A stretch of 64,000 nt of DNA, taken from assembly GCA_000585055.1 (NCBI GenBank), contig JEMX01000061.1, positions 70,234 through 134,233 of the forward strand, given 5' to 3'. The notes beneath the pieces were generated by a model, which was not told the DNA's origin, ran no database searches, and was given only the letters and a program-made list of their open reading frames with translations. Positions 56,004-64,000 of this stretch are shown here, piece by piece (positions within the stretch are counted from its first letter, which is position 1; each line of letters begins with the position of its first letter). This DNA is from Candidatus Accumulibacter appositus. GTDB taxonomy: Bacteria > Pseudomonadota > Gammaproteobacteria > Burkholderiales > Rhodocyclaceae. The translations under genes and the position numbers were made by a program.

Positions 56004-57161
56004 ATGGATCTGCCCGTTCCCAGCACCGACGCCCTGGCCTACAGCGCGGCGCTCAGTGATCACATTGCCCGAGAGATTGACGCGGCCGGCGGCTGGATCG
56101 GGTTTGATCGTTTCATGGATCTGGCGCTCTACGCGCCGGCGCAAGGCTACTACTCCGGCGGCGCCCACAAGTTCGGTGCCCAGGGCGATTTTGTGACTGC
56201 GCCGGAACTCGGTCCGGTTTTTGCCCAGAGTCTTGCTGCACAGGCGGTTCAGCTCCTTCGGCTCGGCTCCCCGCAGATCATCGAAGTGGGTGCCGGCAGC
56301 GGCCAGCTGGCAGTTGACCTGCTGCGCGAGCTCGAGCGGTGCGGCAGCCTTCCCGACAGCTATGCCATTCTCGAACTATCCGGCGAACTGCAGGCGCGCC
56401 AGCGCCAGGCGATTTCCGCCCAGGCGCCGCAGCTGCTGTCGCGCGTGCGCTGGCTCGAGCGCCTCCCCGAGTGCTTCGATGGGCTGGTGCTGGCCAACGA
56501 AGTGCTCGATGCGATGCCGGTACATCTCGTGGTCTGGAAGTCGACGGGAGTTGTTGAACGCGGTGTCGCCATCGATAACGGGCGCTTTGCCTGGGTCGAT
56601 CGCCCGGCCAGCGGCAGGCTGCTTGAGCGAGCACTGGCTCTGGCGGCCGAATGCGACATGCCGCCCGGCTACCTCAGCGAGGTCTCGCTGGCCGCACAGG
56701 CCTGGGTCGCGGCGTGGGCGACACGCCTTGGGCGCGGTGCGCTATTGCTGATTGATTATGGCTTCCCGCGGCGCGAGTACTACCACCCGCAGCGTAGCAG
56801 CGGCACGTTGATGTGTCACTATCGCCACCATGCGCACGGCGAGCCGTTCTACTTACCGGGTTTGCAGGACATCACCGCGCACGTCGACTTCACGGCCATC
56901 GTCGAGAGCGGCTGCTGGGCCGGGTTGGAATTGCTTGGCTACAGTACGCAGTCGAGCTTTCTCTTCAACTGCGGACTCGCCGAAGTCCTGGCGCGAACGC
57001 CGGCCAGCGACGGCAGACGCTATCTGCCTCTCGCCGGTGCCGCCAACAAGCTGGTTTCGCCAGCAGAAATGGGCGAGTTGTTCAAGGTGATCGCGCTGGG
57101 CCGGGGAATCTCTGAACCTCTGCTGGGTTTTTCCAGCGGCGATCGCAGCGCGACGCTCTGA
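56004..57161 (+). CDS. SAM-dependent methyltransferase, MidA/NDUFAF7 family
   Basis: This 385-residue protein is of the family that includes mitochondrial NDUFAF7, which methylates an arginine in complex I. Conserved segments are MDLALYAPAQGYYSGG, GAQGDFVTAPELGPVFAQSLA, the SAM motif IIEVGAGSGQLAVDLL, VLANEVLDAMPVH and LLIDYGFPRREYYHP. A role in complex I assembly is inferred from the eukaryotic relative; bacterial targets are not settled. It is convergent with the acyl-CoA dehydrogenase-like gene. Confidence 0.88.
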   Translation: MDLPVPSTDALAYSAALSDHIAREIDAAGGWIGFDRFMDLALYAPAQGYYSGGAHKFGAQGDFVTAPELGPVFAQSLAAQAVQLLRLGSPQIIEVGAGSGQLAVDLLRELERCGSLPDSYAILELSGELQARQRQAISAQAPQLLSRVRWLERLPECFDGLVLANEVLDAMPVHLVVWKSTGVVERGVAIDNGRFAWVDRPASGRLLERALALAAECDMPPGYLSEVSLAAQAWVAAWATRLGRGALLLIDYGFPRREYYHPQRSSGTLMCHYRHHAHGEPFYLPGLQDITAHVDFTAIVESGCWAGLELLGYSTQSSFLFNCGLAEVLARTPASDGRRYLPLAGAANKLVSPAEMGELFKVIALGRGISEPLLGFSSGDRSATL

Positions 57162-57236: not shown

Positions 57237-58385
57237 TCAGACCCCCAGCCAGCGGGCGATGATGTTGCGTTGCATTTCGCTGGTGCCCGAGTACAGGGTC
57301 GAGCCGATTGCGTCGCGCAGTGCTCGCTCGACCTCGTACTCTTCCATGAAGCCGTAGCCGCCGTGTAACTGCACGGCATCGAGCGCGGTCTTGACCAGGG
57401 ATTCGCTGACGAATAACTTGGTGACCGCTGCGTCGAGCGAAATGCTGCGCGTCGTCGTCAGCCGCGAAGCGGTGCGGTACACCAGCAGCCGCGCCGCTTC
57501 GAGCTGCACCTTCATATCGGCAATCTTGTGCGAGACGGCCTGGAACTTGCCGATCGCCTGGCCGAATTGCGAGCGCGTGCGGGCGTAGGAAATCGAAGTG
57601 TCGAGAAGGCGTTCGATCGTTCCGACGTGCGCTGCAACGAGCAGCGAGCGTTCCCAGTCCATCGCCGTGCCAAAGACGCTTGCGCCGCCGCCCACCGTGC
57701 CGAGAACCGCGTCGTCAGGGACGATGGCATCCTCGAATACCAGTTCGCCGACCGGCGAGGTGCGCAGGCCCATTTTGGCAAACCGCTGGCCGGTGGAGAA
57801 ACCCGCCAGGCCACGTTCGATCAGAAAGGCCGTTACGCCGCCGTGAAAACCCTTGTCAGGGTCGGTGACTGCAAACACCACGACGACGTCGGCCACCGGT
57901 CCGTTGGAGATGAAGGTCTTGCTGCCGTTGAGTCGCCAGCCGTCGTCGGTGCGTTCGGCGCGCAGGCGCATGGCGAAGGTGTCTGAACCCGAATCAGGTT
58001 CGGTGATGGCGTGCGCGCCGATCAGGGTGCCATCACAGAGACCATGCAGGTAGCGATCTTTCTGTGCGGCACTGCCATGCTGCCAGACGGGCACCGCACA
58101 GGCCAGGACATGGGCACAGATCGAAAACACCAGGCCACCGTCGCGACATCCATAACCCAGGGCTTCAAGGGCGATGGCGCAGCTCAGCGGGTCGGCGCCG
58201 ATGCCCCCGTACTCTTCTGACACTGGCAGACCGAGCAGACCGACGGCGGCGCACTTGCGCCAGAGATCGCGCGGGAAACTGTGTGCGCGGTCACGCTCGA
58301 TGACCTCATGATTGAGTTCGCCACGGGCGAATTTCACGATGCTGTCGCGCAACAGCTTTTGCTCGCTACTCAGGTTGAAGTCCAT
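57237..58385 (-). CDS. Acyl-CoA dehydrogenase-like flavoprotein, probable prolyl-carrier-protein dehydrogenase
   Basis: This 382-residue FAD enzyme has the complete acyl-CoA dehydrogenase fold: AITEPDSGSD, the FISNGPVADVVVVFA strand and RSQFGQAIGKFQAV. The base of medium-chain enzymes (Glu in YEGT) is Ser366 (LYSGTSEMQ), while Glu245 in AMDWERSLL sits on helix G, as in isovaleryl-CoA dehydrogenase and in pyrrole-forming enzymes of the PltE/PigA/CloN3 group. GCRDGGLVFSICAHVLACAVP is also reminiscent of that group. The ATG at 58385 overlaps the ligase stop (TGATG). It likely oxidises prolyl-carrier protein to pyrrolyl thioester; an acyl-CoA substrate is the alternative. Confidence 0.85.
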   Translation of the reverse strand: MDFNLSSEQKLLRDSIVKFARGELNHEVIERDRAHSFPRDLWRKCAAVGLLGLPVSEEYGGIGADPLSCAIALEALGYGCRDGGLVFSICAHVLACAVPVWQHGSAAQKDRYLHGLCDGTLIGAHAITEPDSGSDTFAMRLRAERTDDGWRLNGSKTFISNGPVADVVVVFAVTDPDKGFHGGVTAFLIERGLAGFSTGQRFAKMGLRTSPVGELVFEDAIVPDDAVLGTVGGGASVFGTAMDWERSLLVAAHVGTIERLLDTSISYARTRSQFGQAIGKFQAVSHKIADMKVQLEAARLLVYRTASRLTTTRSISLDAAVTKLFVSESLVKTALDAVQLHGGYGFMEEYEVERALRDAIGSTLYSGTSEMQRNIIARWLGV

Positions 58386-59956
58386 CAACAGGTCTCCTTC
58401 AGGCGCTGGTAATCGATCTTGTCGGTAGAGGTCTTGGGCAGACTGTCAAACCAGACGAATCGATCGGGGATCATGTACAGCGGCAGATTCTCGGCACAAA
58501 AACGCTTGATCTCGATCAGCGATGGCCTTTTTTCCTCATGGCTGCTGAGAAAGGCCGTGATGCTCACGCCGGCCTGTTCGTCGGCGAAGGCAAGCACTGC
58601 CGCTTCCTTGATCTTGGCATGGCGGTATAGGCCGGCTTCAATCTCGCCGAGTTCGACGCGGTAGCCGCGGCGCTTGACCATGCGGTCGCGCCGGCCGAGA
58701 TAGGTGTAGCAGGCATCTTCAGCCTCGCTAACGATATCGCCGGTGCGATACCAGGCGGTACCGTCGTCGGCATTGAAAAAGCCCCTCGCCGTCTGCTCGG
58801 GAAGGGCCCAGTAACCTTGCATCACGCCGGGTCCGCTGATCGCCAGTTCCCCTTCACTGCCGCGAGCGACCGTGGCCCCCTCCTCATTCAGTACGCAGGC
58901 GCGCAGATGTGAACAGACCTTGCCGATTGGGTAGGGTGTGCTGCGCTCCGCTGGTATGGGCAAGGGCACTTCGTACCAGGTGCAGACATTGGTTTCAGTC
59001 GGGCCGTAAAGATTGCAGTAGCGCGGCTTCGGCAGCAGTTCGCAGAGGGCCCGCAAGTGTTTCACCGGGAACACCTCGCCAGCGAACAAGACCTGCCGCA
59101 AAGCCGAGTAGTCGTGCCGGGCAAGATTGCCGAACTGGGCCAGCAAAGCGAGGATGGACGGTGCCGAGTACCAGATCGAGATGCGCTCGTCGGCAATCAG
59201 TTGCGCCAGTCGCGGCGCATCCTTGCCGATCTCCTCGCCGACCAGAACCAGGGTCGCACCATGCTTCAGGCAAACGTGGATATCGAGGATCGAGAGATCG
59301 AAGTGGAACGGCGCGTGCGATGAAAAACGATCGGCCGCCGTTGGCGCGAAAGTCTCGGAGCACCAGTCGACGAAAGTCACTGCGTTTTCGTGCGACAGCA
59401 TCACGCCTTTCGGTTGACCGGTCGAGCCGGACGTGTAGAGAATGTAGGCGAGGTCTTGCGGCTGGTTGTGGATGGAAAGGGTGGTCGGCGCCATCGCCTG
59501 CTCGTCGGCTGCGTCGAGCGCAGTACGCAAGCCGCTGCCGCCAGCCCGTTCTTCGGCAACGACGATCATCGCCGGCATCGCCCCGAGCCCGGCAAGTTCG
59601 GCGCCCAACTTGTCCGCCAGCGCGGCTTCGACAATCACCACCTTGACCGCGCAGTTGTGCAGGATATAGGCACCGCGGGCCGCCGGAGCGCCCGGGTCGA
59701 CCGGCACGTAGGCGGCACCTGCCTTGAGTGTGCCGAGCAGCGCTGCCACTGCGTCGACCGATTTGCGCAAGAAAATGCCGACCCGGTCGCCGCGGCAGAC
59801 GCCAAGCAGTGTCAGGCGGTCGCGCAAGCGATCGGACAAGCTGTCCAGTTCGCCGTAGGTAATCGAGCCTTTTCCGGGCTCGACGACGGCCACCGCCTGC
59901 GCGCTTTGCCGCGCACTGGCGATGAAGCGTTCATGCAGGTACGCGGCAGTACTCAT
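58385..59956 (-). CDS. Free-standing adenylation enzyme, probable L-prolyl-AMP ligase
   Basis: This 523-residue ANL-superfamily enzyme has all core motifs: YTSGSTGQPKGVMLSHE, FHFDLSILDIHVCLKHG, NLYGPTETNVCTW, YRTGDIV, GRRDRMVKRRGYRVELGEIE and the catalytic Lys513 in TSTDKID. Aligning the pocket to the Phe-activating domain gives Asp220, Leu221, Leu224, Tyr263, Leu290, Ala292, Leu316, Val324, Cys325, Lys513, which I recall as the code of L-proline ligases of pyrrole pathways. It has no fused carrier domain. Its ATG overlaps the carrier stop and its stop overlaps the dehydrogenase start. Confidence 0.88.
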   Translation of the reverse strand: MSTAAYLHERFIASARQSAQAVAVVEPGKGSITYGELDSLSDRLRDRLTLLGVCRGDRVGIFLRKSVDAVAALLGTLKAGAAYVPVDPGAPAARGAYILHNCAVKVVIVEAALADKLGAELAGLGAMPAMIVVAEERAGGSGLRTALDAADEQAMAPTTLSIHNQPQDLAYILYTSGSTGQPKGVMLSHENAVTFVDWCSETFAPTAADRFSSHAPFHFDLSILDIHVCLKHGATLVLVGEEIGKDAPRLAQLIADERISIWYSAPSILALLAQFGNLARHDYSALRQVLFAGEVFPVKHLRALCELLPKPRYCNLYGPTETNVCTWYEVPLPIPAERSTPYPIGKVCSHLRACVLNEEGATVARGSEGELAISGPGVMQGYWALPEQTARGFFNADDGTAWYRTGDIVSEAEDACYTYLGRRDRMVKRRGYRVELGEIEAGLYRHAKIKEAAVLAFADEQAGVSITAFLSSHEEKRPSLIEIKRFCAENLPLYMIPDRFVWFDSLPKTSTDKIDYQRLKETC

Positions 59957-60216
59957 CAGGCCCCCGTTGGGTTCTTGGACAGCACCAGCTTGACGATACT
60001 CTCCAGGTTGTCGAGGTGTTCCTTGTCGACCTCGTGAGGTTCGAAGTTCACGCTGTACTTTTCCTCCATGAACATCACCAGCTTGAGCGTGGCGATCGAG
60101 TCCAGGATGCCGCCGCTGATCAGCGGGGTCGTTGTGGTGAGCTCGTCGGGGTCCTCGCCGGGGAGGAATTCCTCCATGATGAAGTCCTTGATGGCTTGGG
60201 TGAGGGTGTCGGTCAT
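59956..60216 (-). CDS. Stand-alone acyl/peptidyl carrier protein
   Basis: This 86-residue carrier has Ser40 in GGILDSIATLKLVMFMEEKY, the phosphopantetheine site. It resembles DltC and PltL-type carriers more than fatty-acid ACP, whose site reads DSLD. It begins 51 bases after the MBOAT-SGNH gene and overlaps the ligase gene by one base (TGATG), so carrier and ligase are probably made in fixed ratio. A phosphopantetheinyl transferase is not in the window and must come from elsewhere. Confidence 0.92.
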   Translation of the reverse strand: MTDTLTQAIKDFIMEEFLPGEDPDELTTTTPLISGGILDSIATLKLVMFMEEKYSVNFEPHEVDKEHLDNLESIVKLVLSKNPTGA

Positions 60217-60267
60217 GACTTGGCTCCGGTGGGGGAATGACTCGGGGGTGAAAGTTGCCGCATTGAC

Positions 60268-62817
60268 TTACTTGGTGGCAGCCGTGCTGCCGAAGAGTAT
60301 CGCCGGGTCTTTTTGCAGGGCCCGGTATAGTGCATCGGCGACCAGTTGATGGCCGAGTTCATTGGGATGGTCGTCCCACTCGGCCAGGCGCAAGGTATCG
60401 ATGTCGTGGCCCTGGTAGACATCGGCGAGGTTGATCACTGCGAAGCCCGCATCGCGGGCTATGCGCACGGTCTCTGGCGTTTCTTCCTGCCAGCTGCCGC
60501 CACGGACCTGTGGCAGGAAGACCCACACCGGTCGAATGCCCAATTCGGCTGATCGTCCTGCGATCTCACCGTAAACGGCTTGCAGGATTGCGGCGCCATA
60601 CGGTTTCAGGAGCTTGAGCGCTTCCGCCTTCTCCATTCCCGCGCTTGCGCCTGACTGGTCGACGATTGCCGCCAGGGCCGGGTAGGGAATCGGCAAGCGC
60701 TTCTCGACTGCCTCGGCGAGGTAATCGGCTGAGCGGCTGATCTCGCGGCCGGCGGCGACGTAAAGGATGGCGTTTGGCTGCAGATCCAGAACGTTGTCGA
60801 AAGCGACCAACTGCTGTGGAGGTTGGTAGCCCGGCACGCCCATATTCAGCAGCTCGACGTGCTTGAATGCGCTGCTGACCGGCTCGCGGCCCAAGCGCTC
60901 CTCCAGAAGTGCCTCGAAGGTTGCTCCGTCACCGACGCCCCAGCCCATGACCGTCGAAGGACCCAGCACGGCAGCGCGAAGCGTGTCGGCCGGACGTGCC
61001 TGCGTGTAGTCCTGATCGCGCATTCCCCAGCGATTGGTGGACACCGTCCCGTACTTGGTTGTCGAGACGAAGGACGGAATCAGCTCGTTCTGGGCGAAAT
61101 TGTCGACGAAGCGTTTCAAGCCGGCGTTCTCGACGTCGAGCCAGTTTGCCGGTTTCTTCGAGTAGACCTCCCACAGTTGTGAGTTGAAACGGTCCACCGA
61201 GAGCAGGCCTTCGTAGTAGCCGCGTTCGAGCTTGGCGTTGTCGAGACGACTCAGGTGAGCCGAGCGCAGCGAGCTCACCAGATTCCCGAATTCATTGCTG
61301 ACCCGGGTATGCACGCCTTCCATCGAAATCAGCACCAGCCCCAGCGCCAAGGCGATGGTGATGGCGCGGTCGAGCGCCCACGGGCGATGCCCCTTGGCGG
61401 CCATGGTGGCCGTTGCCGTCTCCGGCAGGCTCAGGCTACCGAGCACGATGACCAGCAGGCTGAGTAGCGGAAACAGCAGGGCTTCAGCGGTGTATGACCC
61501 GGTCCAGGCTGACCACAGGGCAAGCCAGTCGACGATCGACTCACTGGTCCAGAATGACCAGAGGATGGCGATGAACCAGAACGTAGCGTAGGTTTTGGCG
61601 ATGGTGAGCGCGGTGCTCTGCCAGCTCTTTTTCTTCTTGCTGAGGCTGCGGCTGCGGCCGTGCTTTATTTCGTAGAGCGAATTCGCGACCACCAGTACGC
61701 CGAGCACGGCCCAGAAAAGCATGTCATGCCAGGCCAGGAGCCAGGTGCCGCGCAGCCAGAACCATTGGTAGGAGTGCAATAGCCAGGTGAGCAGGAAGAC
61801 ATAAAGCGTGGCGATGATGATGGCGTTGTTGGTGCCGAAGCGCTTCAAGGCGAACACCGCTGGAAAGTAGAAGATCTTCTGCATGAAGTCTTTCCAGTAA
61901 ATATTGATGCGGCGCCAGAAATCGGTGAAGCTGGCCGCCAGGAGATAGCGATTGTGCGTCTCCGGGAGATTGAAGCCGAACAGATGCACGATCCCGACGA
62001 TCAAGTGAAAGAGGCCTGAAACGCGTAGGTAGAGCATGAAATTGGCGACTACGTATTGCAGAAATTGTGCCGGTCCGGTTACTTCCGAAGGGGCCAGGGT
62101 AACGTGGTAGTAGAAGTAGCGGTAAAGAATGAGGTGCACGATGCCGCGGACGATCCAGTCGACGCCCTTCTGATAGGTAAGGTAGGCATCACCGCTGTAG
62201 TGGCTGCGCCGGTAGGTCTTGAAGTCGATGACTGGCAGCAACGGAAAACAGGCGTTGGGGAGCATGAAGAAGTAGCTGGCGGACTGGGCCGGGGTGACCG
62301 GCGTCTTGTCGTGGCGCAGGTCGTAGAAATAGGCGATCAGCCGAAACATGAACATCGCGCCGAGGATTGGCCAGATGGCCTCTGACCAGGGCGTGGGCAG
62401 TAGCGTCGCGCGTTGCGTGATCAACAGCACGCCTAGACCCAGCAGGATGAGGCCGCGAATGCGAAACGATAGCGGCAGGTGACATGCGGCGATGAGCACG
62501 AAACCGATGCCAATGAGCCAAGCACCGTTCGCCAGGCCTAGAGTCAGTGGAATGGAGATCAGGCTGAGGGCGGTGAAGAAAGGCAGGCGTGCGGGCAGAG
62601 GCAGGAAGGAGTGCACCGCGAAGCCGGCAAATGCCAGCATCGCGAGGATACGGAAAGCAGGGCTTTCAATCTGGAACTGGCGCAGCAGCAGCAACACCAG
62701 GATCAGCTGCGCGGCAACAATCGCGAAATCGCGCATCCGAATGCGGCCGTGTGATTCACTCGCTGCTGCGGTGCTGTTGCCGAGTTTCGTGGCAGTGAAC
62801 GTAGGTGTACTATCCAT
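60268..62817 (-). CDS. MBOAT acyltransferase fused to a C-terminal SGNH domain
   Basis: This is an 849-residue membrane protein. Residues 30-470 form an MBOAT domain of the AlgI/DltB branch: FTDFWRRINIYWKDFMQ (297-313) and the presumed catalytic His348 in LTWLLHSYQWFW. A further helix near 485-500 leads into a periplasmic SGNH-like domain (about 580-845) with TNRWGMRDQDY, the Ser in VLGPSTVMGWG (Ser621) and DDHPNELGH (815-823). Alginate and Dlt systems use separate MBOAT and SGNH proteins for this work. The acceptor is unknown. The start is uncertain: ATG 62817 is used, with in-frame ATGs at 62868 and 62922. Confidence 0.88.
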   Translation of the reverse strand: MDSTPTFTATKLGNSTAAASESHGRIRMRDFAIVAAQLILVLLLLRQFQIESPAFRILAMLAFAGFAVHSFLPLPARLPFFTALSLISIPLTLGLANGAWLIGIGFVLIAACHLPLSFRIRGLILLGLGVLLITQRATLLPTPWSEAIWPILGAMFMFRLIAYFYDLRHDKTPVTPAQSASYFFMLPNACFPLLPVIDFKTYRRSHYSGDAYLTYQKGVDWIVRGIVHLILYRYFYYHVTLAPSEVTGPAQFLQYVVANFMLYLRVSGLFHLIVGIVHLFGFNLPETHNRYLLAASFTDFWRRINIYWKDFMQKIFYFPAVFALKRFGTNNAIIIATLYVFLLTWLLHSYQWFWLRGTWLLAWHDMLFWAVLGVLVVANSLYEIKHGRSRSLSKKKKSWQSTALTIAKTYATFWFIAILWSFWTSESIVDWLALWSAWTGSYTAEALLFPLLSLLVIVLGSLSLPETATATMAAKGHRPWALDRAITIALALGLVLISMEGVHTRVSNEFGNLVSSLRSAHLSRLDNAKLERGYYEGLLSVDRFNSQLWEVYSKKPANWLDVENAGLKRFVDNFAQNELIPSFVSTTKYGTVSTNRWGMRDQDYTQARPADTLRAAVLGPSTVMGWGVGDGATFEALLEERLGREPVSSAFKHVELLNMGVPGYQPPQQLVAFDNVLDLQPNAILYVAAGREISRSADYLAEAVEKRLPIPYPALAAIVDQSGASAGMEKAEALKLLKPYGAAILQAVYGEIAGRSAELGIRPVWVFLPQVRGGSWQEETPETVRIARDAGFAVINLADVYQGHDIDTLRLAEWDDHPNELGHQLVADALYRALQKDPAILFGSTAATK

Positions 62818-63243
62818 GGGCAAGGTGTCGGTGCCTTCTCGTAAGGGAGTTGTCGATAGTTGCGCCGCCATGCAGGTCGCTTGGCGCAGGCTCAGTCTGC
62901 ATGCTATCGCCGCGCATCTCATCGTGGCGAGGTGTCCTCGGTGGGCGCATGCTGGGAGCGACCGAAAGCCGCCTGCTCAAGTGGCGGCGGGATCCTGGAA
63001 GCGGATGCTACCACACGCGTTTTGGCGCCCTCCGAATTCTGCCGAGGCTCGAACGTGCTCCACTCACAGAACCCCTACGGCAGATAAAGTCCTTCGCGAC
63101 AGCATGTGTCGCGGATCGTCAAACCTCCAATTGCTTATTCGATTACACGCCCGCATTGGAACAGCAAGCTCGGTCGCGGTCTGTGCGTTTGTTCACTTTC
63201 CGTCGTTATTACTTTGCGCAGGCAGGGTCCGGGCTCGGTCGGC
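62818..63243. other. 426-base region between cca and the MBOAT operon
   Basis: This should hold the promoter of the four-gene operon, since cca ends at 63244 on the same strand. Open frames here are shadows with no family resemblance. AT content rises at 63110-63220, unlike the coding sequence around it. I see no terminator after cca and no clear operator. Confidence 0.45.
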
Positions 63244-64000
63244 TCACCAAGCGATGCTGGCGCGCTTGGCGAGCCCCTGCCTGACCGCAGCTACCCGTTC
63301 CGCATGCAGCAGCGCGCCGATCCTTGCTGGCTCGCTGCAGTTTCGCGCAATGGCTGCCGCATCGACGCCGCGCGCCAGTGCGAGTGCCTGACGGAAGAGC
63401 GCCGGCGCCGGATAGGGAACGTCCTCGAAGCCCTGACGACCATGGAAGTCACAGGCACAGGCTTCGAGAAAGCGCTCGAAGCGTTCGGGGCGGCGCAGCG
63501 CATCGGTGCTTTCGAGAAGCTCGACCATGCTTGCCGGGTCCAGTTGCGCAGCGCGGTGAATGTCGCCGTGATGGCGAGCGACCAGCCGCGCCAGATCAGC
63601 GCACTCGAGCGGCACCTTGAGGCGCGCACAAACTTGCCTGACCAGTTCGACGCTACGCGCTTCGTGGTTTGGATGGCGCGGCAAATCGGCGGCCGGCGTG
63701 CTGCCTTTGCCAAGGTCATGGAGCAGCGCGGCGAGGCGTACCGGCAGTCCGTAGTGGTGTTGTGCAGACTGGTCGACGACCATCATCACATGCACCCCGG
63801 TATCGATCTCGGGGTGCATCTCGGCTCGTTGCGGTACCCCGAAAAGGCGCTCCAGCTCCGGCAGCAGCCGGGCCAGCGCGCCGCATTCGCGCAGTACCTC
63901 GAACATCCGTGATGGCTTGTCCTCCATCAGGCCCTTGGCCAGTTCCTGCCAGACGCGTTCGGCAACCAGATGGTCGAGCTCGCCGTTGGCGACCATTTCT
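63244..64000 (-). CDS. cca: CCA-adding tRNA nucleotidyltransferase, C-terminal part (5' end outside window)
   Basis: This is the C-terminal 251 codons of the bifunctional enzyme that adds and repairs the CCA end of tRNA. VANGELDHLVAERVWQELAKGL is the neck/body region, FGVPQRAEMHPEIDTGVHV is a conserved segment, and LAALLHDLGKG is the HD motif found in the gammaproteobacterial/betaproteobacterial long form, which also has phosphatase and phosphodiesterase activity. The nucleotidyltransferase head lies beyond base 64000. Confidence 0.94.
   Translation of the reverse strand, partial: EMVANGELDHLVAERVWQELAKGLMEDKPSRMFEVLRECGALARLLPELERLFGVPQRAEMHPEIDTGVHVMMVVDQSAQHHYGLPVRLAALLHDLGKGSTPAADLPRHPNHEARSVELVRQVCARLKVPLECADLARLVARHHGDIHRAAQLDPASMVELLESTDALRRPERFERFLEACACDFHGRQGFEDVPYPAPALFRQALALARGVDAAAIARNCSEPARIGALLHAERVAAVRQGLAKRASIAW

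Follow-up and report, generated by a model that had tools for sequence, protein, structure and literature searches.

We analysed a stretch of 64,000 nucleotides from Candidatus Accumulibacter appositus (GenBank assembly GCA_000585055.1, contig JEMX01000061.1, positions 70,234 to 134,233 of the forward strand; henceforth the window), which carries a four-gene cassette on its minus strand at positions 57237-62817. The cassette encodes an MBOAT-SGNH fusion followed by a carrier, an adenylation enzyme (ligase) and an enzyme resembling prolyl-carrier dehydrogenases; the last three will henceforth be referred to as the trio. The four genes are as follows:

60268..62817, minus strand: MBOAT-SGNH fusion, 849 residues (open reading frame, alignment and fold comparison)
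59956..60216, minus strand: carrier protein, 86 residues, phosphopantetheine Ser40 (NCBIfam, alignment)
58385..59956, minus strand: stand-alone adenylation enzyme, 523 residues, pocket code DLLYLALVCK of the L-proline type (Pfam, NCBIfam, PDB, pocket code)
57237..58385 (start 58388 or 58385), minus strand: prolyl-carrier-dehydrogenase-like flavoprotein, 382 residues, catalytic Glu245 (Pfam, NCBIfam, PDB, tree)

Open reading frames and junction sequences confirmed what an earlier reading of the letters alone (henceforth the sequence-only reading) had described, namely four same-strand genes of which the last three are joined by TGATG. Specifically, such junctions lie between carrier and ligase and between ligase and dehydrogenase, while 51 bases separate the MBOAT-SGNH gene from that of the carrier. 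The MBOAT-SGNH frame has a possible longer start at 62922, and we preferred 62817 because the nearest homologue likewise begins MDS. This homologue lies at L025 (loci and genomes used for comparison are given as L and G numbers) in an Accumulibacter metagenome-assembled genome (MAG), which is also the nearest named relative of the locus (ligase 83% and dehydrogenase 90% identical). In a further Accumulibacter genome (G009; L111:11412-14516) a transposase-like gene, recognised by eye, interrupts the ligase gene, and the other three genes look whole.

The ligase has an AMP-binding domain confirmed by Pfam, and its ten pocket residues can be compared with published codes. In PMC3874040, L(L/F)YLALVC is given as the inner pocket code of stand-alone L-proline ligases, VQ(Y/F)IAHVV as that of modular ones and VFYCALVC as that of the proline ligase CcbC. 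The window code is identical to the stand-alone (PltF-type) pattern, and PltF is also the top single-domain PDB match (370 bits), the five PDB rows above it being one gramicidin synthase matched over two stretches. A D-alanine ligase (DltA) can be set aside given both the score (302 bits vs. a cut-off of 476) and the proline code, and a fatty-acyl ligase was rejected on match scores and pocket code. A preference for some other substrate, which would have undone the sequence-only reading, is thus not what this pocket predicts. That reading had also asked whether the proline code is kept beside an MBOAT: among 27 ligases from MBOAT-linked cassettes (26 distinct; L029 and L129 are one genome), 20 carry the exact code and 7 differ by one residue.

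The carrier had no Pfam match and matched six NCBIfam carrier models, each below its cut-off, and the phosphopantetheine serine is conserved in all 27 carriers aligned, including 4 whose loci lack an MBOAT. One of its NCBIfam matches (111.5 bits, cut-off 130) is to the carrier for OlsHI ornithine lipid synthesis, and no paper on OlsH turned up in the open literature searched. The window's own genome holds another ligase-plus-carrier locus (L115:8595-11859, G000:C7), whose code is DFHNVGLVFK and which lies close to a weak MBOAT-like match (L024); it may be a further Dlt-like system that uses a different acyl group. Since its code differs, the proline code is not common to all ligase-plus-carrier loci.

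In the dehydrogenase, Pfam confirmed an acyl-CoA dehydrogenase domain. The top PDB matches were the prolyl-ACP (acyl carrier protein) dehydrogenase 4irn (354 bits) and PltE (332 bits), and the best entry of another name was butyryl-CoA dehydrogenase 6cxt (292 bits). NCBIfam ranked PigA (444 bits) and RedW (417 bits) ahead of the next family (315 bits), and the catalytic Glu245 was conserved in 24 of 24 aligned rows. By nearest homology and catalytic glutamate, the enzyme belongs with the prolyl/pyrrolyl-carrier dehydrogenases PltE, PigA and RedW, of which PigA and RedW are pyrrole makers, and we rejected an ordinary acyl-CoA dehydrogenase on the PDB and NCBIfam scores. It also stood apart in a tree from four other acyl-CoA-dehydrogenase-like rows. 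Activity restricted to acyl-CoA, another outcome that would have counted against the sequence-only reading, therefore appears improbable from these comparisons.

Several relatives add a halogenase to the cassette. The gene order is carrier, ligase, dehydrogenase, halogenase, MBOAT in L107 and carrier, ligase, halogenase, dehydrogenase, MBOAT in L040; in addition, G316 has the trio plus a halogenase, and L181 has two halogenases beside pieces of carrier, ligase and MBOAT. The L040 halogenase scored 456 bits to 5buk, 455 to PltA and 440 to ChlB4, with the next PDB entry at 171, and that of L107 scored 160, 160 and 158 bits to the same three (its nearest NCBIfam model is CmlS, far under the cut-off). 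The substrate of PltA is a pyrrolyl-carrier and that of ChlB4 a different aromatic acid, and halogenation of the PltA type requires an aromatic ring. A match to both therefore indicates by itself an aromatic acyl group on the carrier, which together with the proline trio points to pyrrole. The presence of PltA-type halogenases inside some MBOAT-linked cassettes is unlooked-for support for the pyrrole reading. A weaker candidate at L186 (27%, 87 bits) was set aside, and the window's own genome gave no match to the L107 halogenase at E 1e-5. A Chloroflexi MAG (L067:9738-18706) holds the trio with two Trp_halogenase-family genes and, at E 1e-30, no MBOAT-SGNH anywhere in the genome.

The transferase was assigned on different grounds. 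Pfam gave only an SGNH match to this protein, under the cut-off (27.7 vs. 32.9 bits), and no MBOAT match at E 1e-3, so the MBOAT assignment rests on fold comparison. A structure model built from a 16-row alignment (mean pLDDT, i.e., predicted local distance difference test score, 79.9) matched DltB first in Foldseek (E 2e-7), followed by PORCN and HHAT, and the rest of the model matched SGNH hydrolases; the protein is thus predicted to fold like DltB plus an SGNH domain. In an alignment of 32 rows (31 distinct, L037 and L037b being the same protein), YY534-535, S621 and H817 were invariant in 31 of 31 distinct homologues and D815 was present in 30, while the MBOAT histidines H271 and H348 occurred in all 30 distinct homologues that include the MBOAT part. 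Fold and invariant histidines identify the first part as an MBOAT, and the serine nucleophile with its aspartate and histidine identifies the second as an SGNH domain. The tyrosine pair, which has the form YY[ED]x[LI] in 29 of the 31, sits in the linker that joins the SGNH domain to the last membrane helix; in L052 (Phycisphaerales), where MBOAT and SGNH are separate genes, it is found on the SGNH protein.

To see how often transferase and trio occur together, we counted from both sides, bearing in mind that most relatives are MAGs in which foreign contigs and cut genes are possible. At E 0.001, MBOAT-SGNH matches were found in 20 of 61 relatives (5 full-length, 15 short), and at E 1e-20 the class search yielded 3 of 369 genomes and the family search 13 of 395. 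Carrier, ligase and dehydrogenase were present within about 12 kb in 15 of the 15 distinct genomes from the family and class searches (in G316 the trio begins about 9 kb away, and the G036 dehydrogenase is split between two frames). Of 249 Gemmatimonadota genomes, 8 had MBOAT-SGNH, including G798, on which the set was centred, and the ligase accompanied it in 6 of these 8 (G798 plus 5 of the 7 others). The sequence-only reading would have failed had the MBOAT not been conserved with the trio; with a proline ligase in 15/15 and 6/8 of these genomes, it did not. Beside this subject, a Saprospiraceae MAG (G808; L183, L184, L185) has four MBOAT-SGNH matches, two of them adjacent.

Starting instead from ligases, 43 of 80 loci had a proline-type code, 35 did not and 2 (L066, L085) were too short to score; the linkage counts took in the 43 alone. 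An MBOAT lies in the same locus in 14 of them, and whole-genome MBOAT-SGNH searches covered 35 (i.e., all except L025, L027, L028, L029, L031, L058, L064 and L065). Among genomes with closer ligases, 15 of 17 had MBOAT-SGNH, a set biased by the 9 that already showed an MBOAT beside the ligase when chosen. Where such a locus contained no MBOAT-SGNH, one was found elsewhere in the genome in 6 of 8 cases, the exceptions being G805 and G806. We counted one of the six, G796, as doubtful because it may be foreign: its MBOAT-SGNH (L188:851-3370), on a short separate contig, is 62% identical to the window's, closer than expected for a Myxococcota MAG, and may reflect a foreign contig or a recent transfer. 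By contrast, where the proline ligase was more remote (39-47% identity), MBOAT-SGNH was present in 0 of 18 genomes.

Linked cassettes occur in records labelled Pseudomonadota, Acidobacteria, Gemmatimonadota, Myxococcota/Deltaproteobacteria and Planctomycetota, and their parts remain together despite changed gene orders: MBOAT, carrier, ligase, dehydrogenase (the window, L033, L038, L177), carrier, ligase, dehydrogenase, MBOAT (L036) and ligase, dehydrogenase, MBOAT, carrier (L176, L178). Because the same genes co-occur in distant bacteria in varied orders, the four-gene association is more than chance. The first tree left out L110, L112, L133 and L134 (copies) and L064 (broken), and the later dehydrogenase tree also L125 and L129; the L027 dehydrogenase, split over two frames, was kept with its row out of frame for the first ~60 residues. 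The main clade of the dehydrogenase tree comprised 24 rows (support 100/99), 22 of them from genomes with MBOAT-SGNH, and outside it lay a four-member Myxococcota clade, a Phycisphaerales pair and L182. For the MBOAT association, a single origin was rejected (approximately unbiased test, p 8e-6, for a group named after the first tree).

One explanation for this distribution is that trio and MBOAT-SGNH are mere neighbours serving separate pathways, the MBOAT using acyl-CoA as PatA does. It would suit the genomes that have one part and lack the other, i.e., MBOAT-SGNH without a ligase or prolyl-type dehydrogenase in G926 (a carrier alone beside it) and G1003 (its 6 kb contig shows no member of the trio), and trios lacking MBOAT-SGNH in G805 and G806 (both Chloroflexi) and in the 18 distant-ligase genomes. 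However, the ligase counts from the MBOAT side, the persistence of linkage through altered gene orders and the rejected single origin all speak against it, and we regard it as very improbable.

Gene neighbourhoods bear on the acceptor. The L107 and L108 cassettes lie among glycosyltransferases and an ABC-2 exporter, L037 adjoins a Polysacc_synt flippase, and L038 is found with deoxythymidine diphosphate (dTDP)-sugar genes. In both L038 and L028, labelled as different phyla, the cassette is accompanied by genes for a GFO/IDH sugar dehydrogenase, a hexapeptide transferase and a DegT aminotransferase, and L178 is near a sulfatase and a 3'-phosphoadenosine-5'-phosphosulfate (PAPS) synthase. Neighbours were read at loci other than L125-L132. 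Proteins of L107, L108 and L185 taken by eye for sulfotransferases had no Pfam match and were not used.

Taken together, we propose a Dlt-like envelope acylation in which pyrrole-2-carboxyl is the acyl group, and we judge this probable on the comparisons above. The ligase would activate L-proline and load it onto the carrier, as its pocket code suggests, and the flavoprotein, judging by its family and conserved glutamate, would oxidise prolyl-S-carrier to pyrrole-2-carboxyl-S-carrier. In those relatives that have a PltA-type halogenase, the pyrrole is probably halogenated on the carrier before it is handed on. The MBOAT domain, given its fold and histidines, would then move the acyl group from the carrier across the membrane. 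From there it would pass, possibly by way of one of the YY tyrosines, to the SGNH residue Ser621, and the SGNH domain would esterify an outward-facing acceptor. A surface polysaccharide appears the most likely acceptor because glycan genes adjoin the cassette in some relatives, though not in the window. Pyrrole-2-carboxylation, sometimes halogenated, of an envelope glycan would thus be the best reading, with chemistry and acceptor deduced from sequence. The merger of a Dlt-like with a proline-to-pyrrole module, which the sequence-only reading had put forward, is supported, with most of the sequence comparisons in its favour; this verdict rests on sequence and leaves oxidation state and acceptor aside.

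Several further observations weigh against this proposal. As to transfer, the FXYXXF shuttle motif is absent in 29 of the 31 distinct homologues, the window included, and in L037 and L038, the two that have it, it falls within the MBOAT part instead of in a DltX or at the MBOAT C terminus, the places of a shuttle. An acyl-tyrosine relay has been described in the FXYXXF peptide (PMC12148441); because that motif is absent here, we can only infer such a role for the YY pair. As to linkage, halogenase matches also lie beside proline ligases with no MBOAT in the locus (L043, L045, L056, L057, L061, L064, L067), which means that the halogenase accompanies the trio in general. As to chemistry, the window dehydrogenase falls short of the NCBIfam cut-offs for PigA (500) and RedW (650), as do the Streptomycetaceae dehydrogenases L057 and L061, the latter from Wenjunlia vitaminophila, which we take to be a pyrrolomycin producer. 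Its best PDB match, 4irn, ranks slightly ahead of PltE and presumably stops at pyrroline (i.e., after a two-electron oxidation), and the L028 and L037 cassettes themselves have no dehydrogenase.

The last two points would fit the same surface acylation with an L-prolyl or, after two-electron oxidation at most, a 1-pyrroline-5-carboxyl group, which would be a basic or reactive tag. Against this, dehydrogenases 68% and 50% identical to the window's are encoded elsewhere in the L028 and L037 genomes, NCBIfam places the pyrrole makers first, and the halogenases inside MBOAT-linked cassettes call for an aromatic ring. We consider such a non-aromatic group unlikely.

The acceptor is where the remaining adverse points lie: no glycan gene is found beside the cassette in the window, nor, as read by eye, beside those of L026, L030 and L029, the last from the cultured Pseudothauera rhizosphaerae CC-YHH848. 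The acceptor might then be a small secreted molecule or a lipid, as in natural-product tailoring, instead of an envelope polymer. Pyrrole acyl groups are indeed placed on the aminocoumarin sugar, and the L107 cassette lies in a genome (G203) that has very long frames elsewhere resembling non-ribosomal peptide synthetases. Outside such cassettes, the trio is known as part of antibiotic pathways (PMC3874040). Yet glycosyltransferase, exporter, flippase or sugar-nucleotide genes surround several of the linked loci, and the MBOAT-SGNH pairs named in PMC12148441 act on envelope polymers. We hold such an acceptor to be quite unlikely, and return to the proposed pyrrole decoration of an envelope glycan.

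The cassette is flanked in the window by two genes:

63244..63999, minus strand: cca tRNA nucleotidyltransferase, continuing past the window edge (Pfam, NCBIfam)
56004..57161, plus strand: Methyltransf_28 protein, convergent with the operon (Pfam)

Two Accumulibacter genomes that lack the cassette (G004 and G008; L113, L114) have an AlgI-like gene at the position following cca, confirmed by Pfam as an MBOAT in G004 only. The next gene may encode its SGNH partner, and this position could be a hot spot for acylation genes.

Known systems share parts of this architecture. Dlt D-alanylation (DltA, DltB, DltC, DltD, DltX) likewise combines ligase, carrier, MBOAT (the DltB fold match) and SGNH protein in passing an acyl group from carrier to the outside; the window differs in its proline-type pocket, added dehydrogenase and fusion of MBOAT with SGNH, and to our knowledge no teichoic acid is expected in this Gram-negative host. 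The trios of pyoluteorin (PltF, PltL, PltE), prodigiosin (PigI, PigG, PigA) and clorobiocin agree in ligase code, carrier and dehydrogenase family, and a PltA-like halogenase recurs in some relatives of the window cassette. In those pathways the pyrrole acyl group enters a polyketide, a bipyrrole or an aminocoumarin sugar, whereas the window trio presumably feeds a membrane MBOAT. The O-acetylation systems PatA/PatB and AlgI/AlgJ/AlgX share the MBOAT histidine and the SGNH serine and histidine, and the OatA type shares the joining of a single membrane transferase to an SGNH domain. According to PMC12148441, PatA uses acetyl-CoA, has MBOAT and SGNH as separate proteins and contains FXYXXF, and the OatA type has an AT3 domain and an acetyl-CoA donor. 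By contrast, the window protein is a fusion with YY[ED]x[LI] in its linker, an MBOAT fold and, presumably, a carrier as donor.

Among the matches listed in open-access literature searches on MBOAT or DltB with pyrrole (i.e., outside subscription papers and preprints), we found no description of such a system. We see the chances as evenly balanced that these cassettes, spread over five labelled phyla, represent a widespread, undescribed class of envelope decoration, in which an MBOAT-SGNH transferase fed by a natural-product trio would place pyrrole-2-carboxyl esters, halogenated in some lineages, on surface polysaccharides. The most familiar acylations of bacterial surfaces attach acetyl, alanyl or fatty acyl groups. 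If the proposal is true, the cell surface would carry an aromatic tag, a pyrrole or halopyrrole ester, made by enzymes that are otherwise familiar from antibiotic pathways, and carrier-fed MBOAT-SGNH transfer would gain a substrate class. The fusion would also offer a one-polypeptide system for studying the MBOAT-to-SGNH relay, and the ester a chemical marker to seek in sludge Accumulibacter and Thauera relatives.

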